From Planctomycetia bacterium (GTDB taxonomy: Bacteria; Planctomycetota; Planctomycetia; Pirellulales; PNKZ01): a stretch of 35,275 nucleotides of DNA. Both the position numbers and the translations under genes were made by a program. Each line of letters starts with the position of its first letter. Position 1 is the stretch's first letter. The DNA lies in the NCBI GenBank assembly GCA_021413845.1, contig JAIOPP010000019.1, positions 1 to 35,275 on the forward strand, written 5' to 3'. The notes below the pieces were generated by a model. That model ran no database searches. It saw only the letters and a program-made list of their open reading frames with translations, and was not told where the DNA came from. Of the stretch, positions 27,686 through 33,656 are shown one piece after another.

Positions 27686-29893
27686 CTATTCCGGCTTGAA
27701 CACCAGCACGCTCAATGGCGGCAGCACCACTTCGATCGAATACGGCCGGCCGTGCCAAGGAATCATCTCGGCTTGCACACCCGCCCCGTTGCCGACGTTC
27801 GAGCCGCCGTAGTAGGTCGAGTCGCTATTCAAAGCTTCGCGATAGAAGCAGAGCTTCGAGACGCCGATCCGATGACGTTGCCGCGGCACCGGCGTAAAGT
27901 TGCACGCCGAGAGTAGGAAGTCGTCGGGGTTCTTGCCTTTGCGAAGGAACGCCAGCACGCTCTCTTCCCAGTTGTGGCAATCGACCCACTCGAAGCCGTG
28001 GTGATCGAAGTCGAGCTCATGTAAGGCGGGCTCGTTCTTCAACAGCTTATTCAGATCGGCCACGTAGCGCTGCAAGCCGCTATGCGATTCCCATTGCAGC
28101 AGATGCCATTGGAGGCTCGTGTCGTAGTTCCATTCGGTCCATTGCCCGAACTCGCCCCCCATGAACGTCAGCTTCTTACCTGGGTGGGTCCACATATAGC
28201 CGAACAGGAGCCGCATGTTGGCAAACTTCTGCCACAAGTCGCCCGGCACTTGATCGAGTAGCGAGCCTTTGCCGTGTACCACTTCGTCGTGCGACAAAGG
28301 CAGCACGAAATTTTCGGTGAAGGCGTAGATCAGGCTGAACGTCAATTCATCGTGATGGTATTTGCGATGAATCGACTCGTGCTTCATGTAGCTGCGCGTA
28401 TCGTTCATCCAGCCCATGTTCCATTTCAGGCTGAACCCGAGGCCGCCGATGTAAGTCGGTCGCGAGACATTGGGCCACGCGGTCGATTCTTCGGCGATGG
28501 TCAGCGTGCCGGGGAATTGCGTGTGCGACTGCACGTTGAGCTCGCGAAGGAAGTCGAGCGCTTCGAGGTTCTCGCGTCCGCCGAAGCAATTCGGTTCCCA
28601 GTCCCCTGCTTCGCGGCTGTAATCGAGATAAATCATCGAAGCGACGGCGTCGACCCGAAGACCGTCGATGTGGTATTTGTCGAACCAGAAGAGCGCGTTC
28701 GAGATCAAGAAGTTACGGACTTCGTGTCGTCCGTAGTTGAAGATCAACGTCCCCCAATCGCGATGCTCTCCCTTGCGCGGGTCGGAGTGTTCGTAGAGGT
28801 TCGTGCCGTCGAAATACGCCAGCCCGTGGCCGTCTTTCGGGAAGTGGGCGGGCACCAAATCGAGCACCACGCCGATGCCGTTTTGGTGGCAAAGATCCAC
28901 GAAGAACATAAAGTCTTCGGGCGAGCCGTAGCGCGCGGTCGGCGCGAAATAGCCGACGATCTGATAGCCCCAGCTTCCCGAAAACGGATGCTCCGAGATC
29001 GGCAGCAGCTCGATGTGCGTGTAGCCCATCTCCTTCACGTAGTTCACCAAGTCGACGGCGAGCTCGCGATAGGTCATCCAGCGATCCGGGTTATCCCCCG
29101 GCCGGCGCCAACTGCCGAGATGCACTTCGTAGTACGACATCGGGGCGTCGAGCGCATTATTCTTCTTGCGCTTCGCCATCCACTCCGAGTCTTGCCACTC
29201 GTAGCGCGTGAGATCGATCACCTTCGAAGCGGTCTTCGGCGGGCACTCGGCCCCGAAGCCGTACGGATCGCACTTCTCTTGCACGAAGCCGCCGTTTTTT
29301 ACACGGTACTTATACAGCGTGCCGTCGGGCAGGCCGGGAACGAACAGCTCCCACACGCCGCTAGGAATGTGCTTCCGCATCGGGTGCCGGCGCTCGTCCC
29401 ACTTGTTGAAGTCGCCGACGATGCTGACGCTCGTCGCGTTCGGAGCCCACACCGCGAAGTTCACGCCGCGCACGCCGTCGACCGTGCGCATCTGAGCGCC
29501 GAGCTTATCGTAGCTTTGCCAGTGCGTCCCTTCGCCGAGCAGATACAGATCGAAGTCGCTCAACAGCGGCGGGAAGGCATAGGGGTCGTGCATATTCTTA
29601 CGTGCGCCTTGTTCGTCGACTACTTGCAAATGATAGGGAGCGGGCCCCGCCGCTTGGTCGTCGAGCGGACAGATCGCTTCGTACAATCCTGAAGGATGAA
29701 TCTTCCGCATCGGCCGAGGAACGCCGTGAGCCGCTTCGACCCAGGCCTGCTTCGTCTCCGGCAAGAAGGCCCGCACCGCCATCGCACGGCGACCGTCTTG
29801 CTCGACGATATGGGGGCCGAGCAGTCGTTTCGGGTCTTCCAGGCGACCGTCGACGAGCCGCCCGATCGTGTCTAACGAGGTCAGCGTTCGCAC
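27686..29893 (-). CDS. glgB: 1,4-alpha-glucan branching enzyme GlgB
   Basis: 735 residues, normal full-length GlgB. The start is GTG at 29893, with AAGGAG 7 bases upstream. N-terminal carbohydrate-binding domains (first ~120 residues; then a CBM48 with [22 protein letters not shown]) precede a GH13 barrel. Catalytic-site motifs are [10 protein letters not shown], the nucleophile Asp415 in [10 protein letters not shown], the acid/base Glu near residue 468 in [10 protein letters not shown], and [14 protein letters not shown]. The C-terminal beta domain ends in [10 protein letters not shown]. The enzyme makes alpha-1,6 branches in glycogen. No other glycogen gene (glgA, glgC, glgP) is in this window. 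Confidence 0.97.
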
Positions 29894-30192: not shown

Positions 30193-30840
30193 TCAATTCC
30201 GCCACGATCCGCCGGCGATCGAGGCCCCGAACTGCGCACAAGACATCGTCAGCCCGTCGGCCCGATCGCGCATTCTGCGGCGAGTCCGGTGCCAAGAGTC
30301 TTTCCAGCGTCGCGCCACGGTCGCGGCTTCCTTCTTCGCGGCAGCGTCGGCAGCAGGAGCTTCCGCCGCCGAGGAGGCTTGCTCCGTCGCTTCTTCGTCG
30401 CGATTCCGGCTCGTCGTCGTTTCCGCCGGGCGATCCAAATGCGCCGCATCGAAGCGGAACACGCGCCGTGTCTCCAACTTGTGGAAGCACAATGCCCGAT
30501 CGAGCCGCTGCCACAGGTCGCGGTTCTTGATCGGGGCCATTTCGCCGTAACATTCCCACATCCAGCCGTTGCGACGCCATTCGTCGAGTCCCTCGGCCAC
30601 GGCGCGGCGCACCGTTCGAGCTCCCGACGTCATCGTCACGATCGACGGTTGGTCGAGCGCTTCAAGCGCGCGAACCACCGCCAGCAATTCCAGTCGTTCG
30701 CTGCTCACGTCGAGTTCTTCGTCGCAAGCCGTCAGTTCCGCCGATCCATCGGCCGCCGTCAGAGCGAAGTTCCATTCGCCCCGTTTCCCTTCGACCTGCG
30801 CCTCGCAGCGCAAGAAGAAGTGCGGTTGGGCAGAAGCCAT
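30193..30840 (-). CDS. RNase HI-like protein with degenerate active site
   Basis: 215 residues. Residues 40-125 align by eye with RNase HI. SSERLELLAVVRALEAL matches the helix TNNRMELMAAIVALEAL of the E. coli enzyme, keeping the catalytic Glu (Glu51 for Glu48). VRRAVAEGLDEWRRNGWMWE...APIKNRDLWQRLDRAL matches the substrate-handle region including NxDLWQRLD. But the usual first Asp (TDGS, E. coli Asp10) is not found, and the Asp70 position (TDSQ) reads TSGA, giving Gly73. The fourth Asp cannot be placed with confidence. The C-terminal 75 residues are Ala/Glu/Lys-rich and basic. Nuclease activity is therefore doubtful; a nucleic-acid-binding role is more plausible. No clear ribosome-binding site. 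Confidence 0.75.
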   Translation of the reverse strand: MASAQPHFFLRCEAQVEGKRGEWNFALTAADGSAELTACDEELDVSSERLELLAVVRALEALDQPSIVTMTSGARTVRRAVAEGLDEWRRNGWMWECYGEMAPIKNRDLWQRLDRALCFHKLETRRVFRFDAAHLDRPAETTTSRNRDEEATEQASSAAEAPAADAAAKKEAATVARRWKDSWHRTRRRMRDRADGLTMSCAQFGASIAGGSWRN

Positions 30841-31216
30841 AGAGTTATGAGCTCTTGAGTTTTTGGGAAGGTGGGATGCGTTGTGGGTCGACCGATTCGA
30901 CCGAGGGGCAAGCGTGCGTCTTGCTTGTTTTCGCTAACAAGCTCTATCGGCAGACTCACCCCGAACTTCGCAACTTTGCCCCCCAACGCAACACATTTTT
31001 CTTCGCGCGCGGTCGACGGTAGATTTTAGATCGACTTTAACGATCGCGAAAACTCTCCGAGGCGAGCGGGGACCGTTATATCCCCGTTGAACGAAGTCAG
31101 AGATTCTATCTCGCGATTAAATTCAAAGACAACAAAACAAAAAAAAGCCGGCTCGAAGCGAATGTCGCTTCGAGCCGGCTTAGATGATTCAAACGTATCG
31201 TCGACTATAGCCGCAC
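30841..31216 (-). other. 376-base intergenic region between the RNase H-like and C26-like genes
   Basis: It holds the terminator of the C26-like gene (31138-31181) and, by position, the promoter of the RNase H-like gene. A TATAAC hexamer on the minus strand near 31080 could be a -10 box but has no good -35. No gene is seen. Confidence 0.35.
31138..31181 (-). terminator. Intrinsic terminator of the C26-like gene
   Basis: A perfect 16-bp stem (31145-31160 with 31166-31181) closes on a 5-base loop. On the minus strand it is followed by a run of eight or nine T (the A-run at 31138-31146 on the top strand). It lies 36 bases after the stop of the minus-strand C26-like gene. Confidence 0.9.
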
Positions 31217-31987
31217 TTACGCCGCCATGCGGATCGTCATCGGTTCGTCGTCTTCCACGGCCGGGGCTTCGCCCGTGATGGCCCAGATGAATTCTTCGAT
31301 GATCCGCAGATCGAGGGCCGAGGCGCTGTCGGCTTCCGGATGGAATTGCGTTCCCATCGCGAACCAATCGGGGCGGATGCTTTCGATTGCTTCCACGACG
31401 CCGTCCGGGCAGCGGGCCGAGACGATGAAGCCGGTCGCGACTTCGTCGATGCCCATGTGGTGCATGCTGTTGACGCGGATTTCACCTTCGCCGTACACCC
31501 GTTCCATGATCGTGCCGCGAACCACTTCCAACGCGTGGCGATGGTTGACGTCGATCGGGTCTTTATGCGGCAGGCTCTTCGGGAGATCTTCCGGAATGTG
31601 GAAAAAGAGGTTGCCCCCTTGCGAGACGTTGAGCAACTGCATGCCGACGCCGATGCCGTAGAACGGCAAGCGTCGATCGGCTGCGGCGCGAACCAACCGG
31701 CGATCGAACGATTCGCGGCGCGGTTCCATCGTGCGGATCGAAGGGTGCATCATGAAGCCGTCGCGTCGCGGGTCGAGATCGGCACCGCCGATCATCATCA
31801 CGCCGTCGAGCAGGTCGAGAAATTGATTCAGGTCTTCGTCTTCTTCCAGCATCGGAATAATGACGGGAACGCCGCCGGCCTTGACGATCGCATCGTGGTA
31901 ACCCGTGCATAGGTAGCTCATCGCTGGACTATCTTTGCGTGCGGCGCGATAATCCATGTTGATCCCGATCAAAGGCTTACGTTTCAT
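31217..31987 (-). CDS. Peptidase C26 / class I glutamine amidotransferase-fold protein lacking the catalytic Cys
   Basis: 256 residues from the ATG at 31987, preferred over an ATG at 32011 because AGGAG sits 7 bases upstream of it. Overall it matches gamma-glutamyl-GABA hydrolases (PuuD-like): KPLIGINMDYR, YHDAIVKAGGVPVIIPML, LDGVMMIGGADLDPRR, VNSMHHMGIDEVA, FAMGTQFHPE. The nucleophile elbow, normally GICRGMQLLNV, reads GIGVGMQLLNV: Gly113 (codon GGC) stands where Cys (TGC/TGT) should be. The His-Pro-Glu of the triad is kept. Without the cysteine it cannot run the usual thioester chemistry, so it is probably a pseudoenzyme (binding or sensing) or uses other chemistry. The short C-terminal tail is acidic. 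It has its own terminator and a dyad in its leader. Confidence 0.85.
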   Translation of the reverse strand: MKRKPLIGINMDYRAARKDSPAMSYLCTGYHDAIVKAGGVPVIIPMLEEDEDLNQFLDLLDGVMMIGGADLDPRRDGFMMHPSIRTMEPRRESFDRRLVRAAADRRLPFYGIGVGMQLLNVSQGGNLFFHIPEDLPKSLPHKDPIDVNHRHALEVVRGTIMERVYGEGEIRVNSMHHMGIDEVATGFIVSARCPDGVVEAIESIRPDWFAMGTQFHPEADSASALDLRIIEEFIWAITGEAPAVEDDEPMTIRMAA

Positions 31988-32005
31988 CGTCAGACTCCTG
32001 TGTGG

Positions 32006-32567: not shown

Positions 32568-33656
32568 ATGCGTTTGCGTTACGAAAACGTCTGTATCGAG
32601 GCCTTTGGTTACGATTTGCCGACGGAAATCGTCTCCACGGCGGAGCTCGAACATCGTCTCACTCCGCTCTACGAACGCCTCCGCTTGCCGCAAGGTCGGC
32701 TGGAGCTCATGACCGGCATTCGCGAGCGGAGATTCTTTCCGGCCGACATGCCGCCGAGCGAAGCGAGCGCGCGCAGCGGCGCACGCGCCATCGCAGCGGC
32801 GGGCATCGACCGAGCGAAAATCGGCCTCTTGATCCACGGCTCGGTCTGTCGCGACTATCTCGAACCGGCAACCGCGTGCGGCGTGCATCGCGAGCTCGAC
32901 TTGCCGAAGAACTGCATCATCTACGATCTCTCGAACGCCTGCCTCGGCCTGCTCAACGGCATGCTGCAAGCCGCCGATATGATCGAGCTCGGCCGAATCG
33001 AAGCGGCGCTCGTCGTCGGCACGGAGAACGGCCGGCACTTGGTCGAGAACACGATTCAAAACCTAAATGAGAGCACGTCGCTCACGCGCGACGATGTGAA
33101 GCTCTCGATCGCTTCGCTCACGATCGGCGCGGCCAGCGCCGCCGTGTTACTGACGAGCAAGTCGTTGAGCCGCACGCAGAATCGGCTGCTCGGCGGCCAC
33201 GTACTCGCCGACACGCACAACTTGGCCCTTTGCCGGAGCGGGCGCGACGAGGCTCGCGCCGACGGAGTGCGCCCGCTGATGACGACCGACTCCGAAGCGT
33301 TGCTACACGGCGGCATCGCGGCGGCCGGCGAAGCGTTCGGCGGCTTTCTCGCTGCACTCGGCTGGCAAGCCTCGGACATCGACAAGACCGTTTGCCATCA
33401 GGTCGGCATCGCGCATAAGAAGTTGCTCTTTCAGAAGCTCGGCCTCGATCCGGTGCGCGATTTCAGCACGTTCGAGTTTCTCGGCAACACCGGCTCCGCG
33501 GCCCTGCCGATCACCGCGGCGCTCGGCATCGAGCAGGGCCACCTGCAGGCCGGCGACCGCGTGGCGATGATGGGGATCGGCTCCGGCATCAACGTCGTCA
33601 TGCTCGGCGTCGAATGGCAAACGGCTCTCGCCGGCCGGGGCCCGGCAGCCGGATAG
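32568..33656 (+). CDS. OleA/FabH-like 3-oxoacyl-ACP synthase III family enzyme
   Basis: 362 residues, thiolase superfamily. The triad is complete: Cys125 in LSNACLGLLNG, His277 in VCHQVGIAHKK and Asn307 in LGNTGSAALP. Regions such as TGIRERRF, GSVCRDYLEPATACGVH, MIELGRIEAALVVGTENG and GDRVAMMGIGSGINVVMLGVEW resemble OleA, which condenses two fatty acyl-CoAs head-to-head to a beta-keto acid for long-chain olefins, more than housekeeping FabH. No oleB, oleC or oleD gene is next to it here; the next gene is NAD+ synthetase. So either the partners lie elsewhere or the enzyme makes another product, such as a ketone, lipid or starter unit. There is no clear ribosome-binding site before the ATG. Confidence 0.85.
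   Translation: MRLRYENVCIEAFGYDLPTEIVSTAELEHRLTPLYERLRLPQGRLELMTGIRERRFFPADMPPSEASARSGARAIAAAGIDRAKIGLLIHGSVCRDYLEPATACGVHRELDLPKNCIIYDLSNACLGLLNGMLQAADMIELGRIEAALVVGTENGRHLVENTIQNLNESTSLTRDDVKLSIASLTIGAASAAVLLTSKSLSRTQNRLLGGHVLADTHNLALCRSGRDEARADGVRPLMTTDSEALLHGGIAAAGEAFGGFLAALGWQASDIDKTVCHQVGIAHKKLLFQKLGLDPVRDFSTFEFLGNTGSAALPITAALGIEQGHLQAGDRVAMMGIGSGINVVMLGVEWQTALAGRGPAAG

Follow-up and report, generated by a model that had tools for sequence, protein, structure and literature searches.

What is a protein kept for when its family label is that of a gamma-glutamyl hydrolase and yet every orthologue examined in its class is without the Cys of the hydrolase mechanism? Such a gene lies on the minus strand at 31217..31987 of the window, by which we mean the whole stretch of 35,275 nucleotides analysed here, and its retention in most genomes of the class in spite of this loss points to a conserved, non-catalytic role. 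It begins with an ATG at 31987, the stop codon ends at 31217, and the translated frame of 256 residues plus stop is free of internal stop codons. An AGGAG ribosome-binding site (31995..31999, minus strand) is located 7 nt upstream of the ATG, and a hairpin resembling an intrinsic terminator, with 17 pairs followed by a T-run in a consensus scan (31145..31181, minus strand), lies around 35 bases beyond the end of the gene. A preliminary description of this DNA, which named no strand, had reported the ribosome-binding site, the terminator and the intact frame, and all three were found again, on the minus strand.

The same description placed the protein on a PuuD-like scaffold of the C26 family, and this assignment stands: the Peptidase_C26 profile PF07722 is matched over its entire length (1-219 of 219; E 1.7e-60; 204.9 bits against a cut-off of 20.5), with a score for the PuuD equivalog NF008471 that stays below its threshold (101.2 bits against 266). 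The closest solved structures by sequence are Lin1909 (3fij), SpuA (7d4r, with the title ‘Probable glutamine amidotransferase’) and PuuD (6vtv), and SpuA, PuuD and Lin1909 also rank first in a Foldseek search that used a weak structure model (7 sequences, mean pLDDT 57.5). The GGxDxxP, NSxHH, DGxxEAxE and HPE segments are retained, and QFHPE at residues 214-218 (31334..31348, minus strand) contains both remaining members of the former triad, His216 and Glu218, in agreement with the FHPE noted before. The nucleophile elbow is where the protein departs from this scaffold, since residues 111-120 read GIGVGMQLLN and Gly113, encoded by GGC (31649..31651, minus strand), aligns in a pairwise comparison to the Cys of ICRG in Lin1909; translation, codon and alignment thus all bear out the Gly-for-Cys elbow that had been read from the letters. 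When held against an active Cys hydrolase, the protein has the His and the Glu, and Gly at the position of the catalytic Cys.

This feature is by no means restricted to one genome. With a limit of E<=1e-5, 52 of 57 near genomes contain a relative; with E<=1e-30, 280 of the 297 class genomes do, three of the 280 (G220, G267 and G274) giving weak matches only, that of G220 being of the Asp type described below, while the other 17 genomes were without a match. Across the phylum, a match was obtained in 225 of 294 genomes, with best scores of at least 355 bits inside the class and of 241 bits outside it. A scan of contigs with the single protein as query, which detects close relatives only, returned 6 loci, all with planctomycete titles. 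Residue 113 was read in 121 loci, a non-random set chosen by best match and by hand across families, in which some entries are one place retrieved twice, and these gave 115 distinct proteins at an identity of at least 41.5%. Gly occupies the position in 110 of them, Ala in four, Ser in one and Cys in none, so that Gly is nearly, if not entirely, fixed in the planctomycete homologues, which was the check proposed beforehand. On the other side, the elbow Cys is present in all 40 other planctomycete C26 proteins compared (15 from inside the class and 25 from outside) and in all 28 outside-class loci examined (L169-L195 and L217).

An unrooted tree of 80 rows separates these groups clearly, a branch with an SH-aLRT of 99 dividing the Gly-type and Asp-type proteins from the Cys-type ones; a near copy (L062, a Cys-type in-class paralogue) was excluded from it, and the rows L200, L208 and L209 are fragments. 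The simplest reading is that the Cys would have been lost once, in the ancestor of the class and before its radiation. Regarding selection, comparison with four close relatives (three from the same genus and one from the same family) yields a dN/dS of 0.136-0.147, and ten other usable pairs yield 0.017-0.186; one further pair of the 15 computed is saturated and does not enter the range. These values, together with the relatives found in the near genomes, agree with the earlier suggestion that the gene is maintained rather than decaying, and support the view that the Cys-less protein evolves under purifying selection. The near-fixed loss of a catalytic residue over a whole clade under such selection, with Ala or Ser, and never Cys, as the exceptions at position 113, is what characterizes a pseudoenzyme. 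As judged from its residues, the protein is not an ordinary Cys hydrolase, and it is likely to be without any activity.

Genomes of a Gemmataceae-like family (f23) encode, as a second copy, a C26 protein that also lacks the Cys and has Asp at the elbow in 10 of 10 cases examined (L107, L200, L202, L203, L204, L208, L209, L211, L214 and L216). These Asp-type copies form one branch (SH-aLRT 100). All ten have lost the Glu of HPE and six have lost the His as well, and six end in [VA]A.

The best clue to how the Cys-less protein may be controlled is its C-terminus. The window protein ends in Met-Ala-Ala (31220..31228, minus strand), a candidate ssrA-like degron that follows the last helix and a linker variable in both length and sequence. 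The corresponding pattern, [LMIVAF][VA]A (that is, LVA/LAA/MAA-like), closes 91 of the 115 orthologues as against 1 of 262 background ORFs, the latter being greedy longest ORFs of at least 150 aa from 19 stretches of 20 kb; an alternative background of ORFs of at least 200 aa, in which the window is included, gives 2 of 237, one of these being the window protein itself. The Cys-type planctomycete relatives differ in this respect, as the tail is absent from 39 of 40 and the pattern is present in 1. The looser end [VA]A is shared by 104 of 115 orthologues, with Ala at position -1 in 106, Ala or Val at position -2 in 112 (Val in 42) and Leu as the commonest residue at position -3. Because the codons of the tail vary synonymously among orthologues, selection on it acts at the protein level. 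Some lineages deviate: the tail is lacking in all five orthologues of lineage f21, which end in KVG, RVG or KAS, and of the 11 proteins of lineage f22, four conform to the strict pattern and all 11 to [VA]A. In lineage f26, the last three residues are LAA in five proteins and AAA in one. This conserved tail was absent from the preliminary description.

The machinery that could read such a tail is encoded in the same genome. Its tmRNA specifies the tag AEDSYALAA, and its ClpX (TIGR00382, 599.2 bits) retains the tag-binding loops GYVG and GTVANVPPQGGRKHP, the pairing of these motifs with loop names being in part our assumption. Since the tmRNA tag of this genome ends in LAA and the tag-contacting loops of ClpX are kept, the tail, with its C-terminal Ala-Ala, looks like a built-in ssrA-type degron. 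Its layout, with mostly Ala at -1, Ala or Val at -2 and Leu at -3, resembles that of the ssrA tag and of the natural ClpX substrates ending in Ala-Ala treated in passages of PMC7652416; unlike the ssrA tag, it is encoded by the gene, resides on a pseudoenzyme, is conserved over most families of the class and has Val at -2 in more than a third of cases (42 of 115). The same passages single out the Ala-Ala-carboxylate at the terminus as the chief element of the ssrA degron and report a higher KM for ClpXP in E. coli after a change of either terminal Ala (PMC7652416), which weighs against a degron in the 42 orthologues carrying Val at -2. LVA and AAV are named as tag variants in use in a section of one review (PMC9382460). 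Among the readings of the tail, a degron is the best supported, with a docking peptide as its main rival.

When these elements are put together, we propose, with confidence evenly balanced between belief and doubt, that the family is a class-wide planctomycete pseudoenzyme acting as a non-catalytic binding protein, the level of which would be set by Clp proteolysis. A C26 protein of the gamma-glutamyl hydrolase type would have lost its Cys while keeping the rest of the pocket and gaining fixed residues of its own. A glutamine- or gamma-glutamyl-type compound, a kind of ligand that the retained pocket alone suggests, would be bound there and left uncleaved, and the LVA/LAA/MAA-type degron at the C-terminus would be readable by ClpX, with the bound ligand or a partner either hiding or exposing it. 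Since the C-terminus carries a putative encoded ssrA-like degron, the amount of protein would be adjusted after translation. The lack of activity, the ligand, the proteolysis by Clp and the gating of the tail are all what we infer.

A different role, possible but rather doubtful in our estimation, would be that of a subunit or scaffold in a complex, formed in some lineages with the product of an AnmK-like neighbour, so that the tail would serve as a docking peptide or as a signal for the removal of unassembled subunits. Immediately after the Cys-less C26 gene and in its orientation, 38 of 121 loci carry a gene of an AnmK-family cluster (L124:2715-3932, L086:95-1312, L014:2305-3423 and 35 further loci), and a Pfam run on three of them confirmed the assignment. 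By lineage, 18 of these loci belong to f23, 5 to f26, 1 to f24 and 14 to the window's own order, which leaves 24 outside that order. C-termini of the form [AV][AVI] are likewise over-represented among the AnmK-like products (21 of 32, as against 8 of 262 background ORFs; the count covers 32 of the 34 proteins compared, L025 and L078 running to the end of the locus). The comparison was made on 34 of the 38 loci, L037, L070, L084 and L101 being excluded because they nearly duplicate other loci or the genus of L028, and it shows the exact SGTSxDGxD motif to be lost in 34 of 34, as opposed to its presence in 4 of 6 distant comparators. The Asp of this motif is kept in 5 of 34, and the Glu preceding the conserved Ala is found in 6 of 34 against 6 of 6 comparators. 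These changes count in favour of such a complex, but the Asp of FRxxD persists in 32 of 34, which is why the AnmK-like neighbours may still be enzymes, altered and not dead; the roles of SGTSxDGxD and of the FRxxD Asp in AnmK are here taken as we presume them to be. A second point against the complex is that the own genome and six relatives of the same genus or family (G000-G006) gave no match to an AnmK-like protein at E<=1e-10, and yet both the C26 gene and its tail are kept there. Since these relatives are without a match, the AnmK-like gene is better described as a frequent but dispensable companion.

The binding-protein proposal and the neighbour can also be combined in a more elaborate scheme, which we consider unlikely in its entirety. 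Here, a protease-tuned sensor derived from a former enzyme would recognize a gamma-glutamyl ligand, possibly derived from the cell wall, and would be joined in many lineages by an altered AnmK-like partner with an AAV-type-like end, the binding of ligand or partner shielding the tails and thereby setting the levels of the proteins.

It might further be argued that the protein is still an enzyme, with a pocket that works without the Cys by an altered chemistry, for instance through His216 together with D143, R150 or Y165. This we hold to be quite improbable, even if the retention of His216 in 114 of 115 orthologues and of Glu218 in 107 of 115 could be explained by residual chemistry. The family has acquired 18 specific positions, conserved in at least 90% of orthologues and shared by less than 35% of the Cys-type relatives, among which are Gly113, R96, D143, R150, Y165, W208 and D226, and many pocket residues are fixed in both the Gly-type and the Cys-type group. 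The new fixed polar residues D143, R150 and D226 would be at the disposal of such a chemistry, but Ser, Thr and Cys are absent from the 18 positions and variation among orthologues extends to residue 114, so that no replacement nucleophile is evident at the elbow. Moreover, lineage f26 (L091, L092, L095, L097, L101 and L106) has Ala or Ser at position 113 in 5 of 6 proteins and HPH for HPE, that is, His for Glu218, in 6 of 6; little of the triad remains there, and the protein is nonetheless kept. The second copy of f23, with Asp at the elbow and the Glu lost in all ten cases, speaks against a conserved chemistry in the same way.

Finally, a local mutation or a sequencing error in one genome, for which the GGC codon lies only a single base away from TGC, has a negligible chance of being the explanation and is rejected, given the complete lack of Cys in 115 distinct orthologues and a dN/dS of about 0.14.

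The preliminary description had also considered a ligand sensor or a regulatory subunit; as the partner of a C26 paralogue the latter is unlikely here, as the own genome (7.08 Mb, 99.59% complete) contains no second match to the protein at E<=0.01.

Returning to the non-catalytic binding protein, several known systems provide a frame of reference. The full-length C26 family match, and the nearest position both by sequence and by the fold of the weak model, tie the protein to PuuD, SpuA and Lin1909, from which it is set apart by the lack of the catalytic Cys and by its 18 family-specific positions. The inactive glutaminase of CPS1 (carbamoyl phosphate synthetase I) is a domain of a large synthetase in which Ser replaces the Cys. 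Both cases have in common that a class I amidotransferase fold has been retained after loss of the catalytic Cys, the difference being that the planctomycete protein is a stand-alone C26 protein with Gly for Cys and a C-terminal tail. Pseudoenzymes and ssrA-like degrons are each already known; what would be new is their combination in a C26 family that lacks the Cys across a class and encodes an ssrA-like tail, no description of which was found among the open-licence papers searched. The main text of a study on the essential genes of Planctopirus limnophila (PMC10632474) has 0 occurrences of amidotransferase, C26 or gamma-glutamyl. Another paper (PMC10945688) deals, in the part concerned, with phage genes and is unrelated to this protein. 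The tmRNA-like tail matters because it turns the vague label of pseudoenzyme into a testable claim of regulated proteolysis, in a group of bacteria whose cell biology is poorly understood.

As to the neighbourhood in general, neither the OleA-like nor the AnmK-like cluster covers the whole class. Upstream of the C26-family gene, a divergent gene of the 3-oxoacyl-ACP synthase III family (32568..33656, plus strand; Pfam ACP_syn_III_C, 4.7e-17) encodes an OleA-like protein, the best solved match of which is 3fk5 (1.8e-57), which we take to be Xanthomonas OleA. Its cluster recurs in 40 of 121 loci, 37 of the same order, family or genus and three named planctomycete records, and none of the 40 is related at class level only; the gene is a recurring neighbour and, at most, a candidate part of the system. 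Downstream of the C26-family gene, an RNase H-domain gene (30193-30840) and a glgB-like branching-enzyme gene (27686-29893) follow, both on the minus strand. In lineage f22, six of the 11 loci with larger flanks have in common an upstream stretch with an ORF cluster, and an aspartokinase-like gene is, by eye, common to three of the 11. Cytochrome b-type genes, likewise recognized by eye, are common to three of the five f21 loci.
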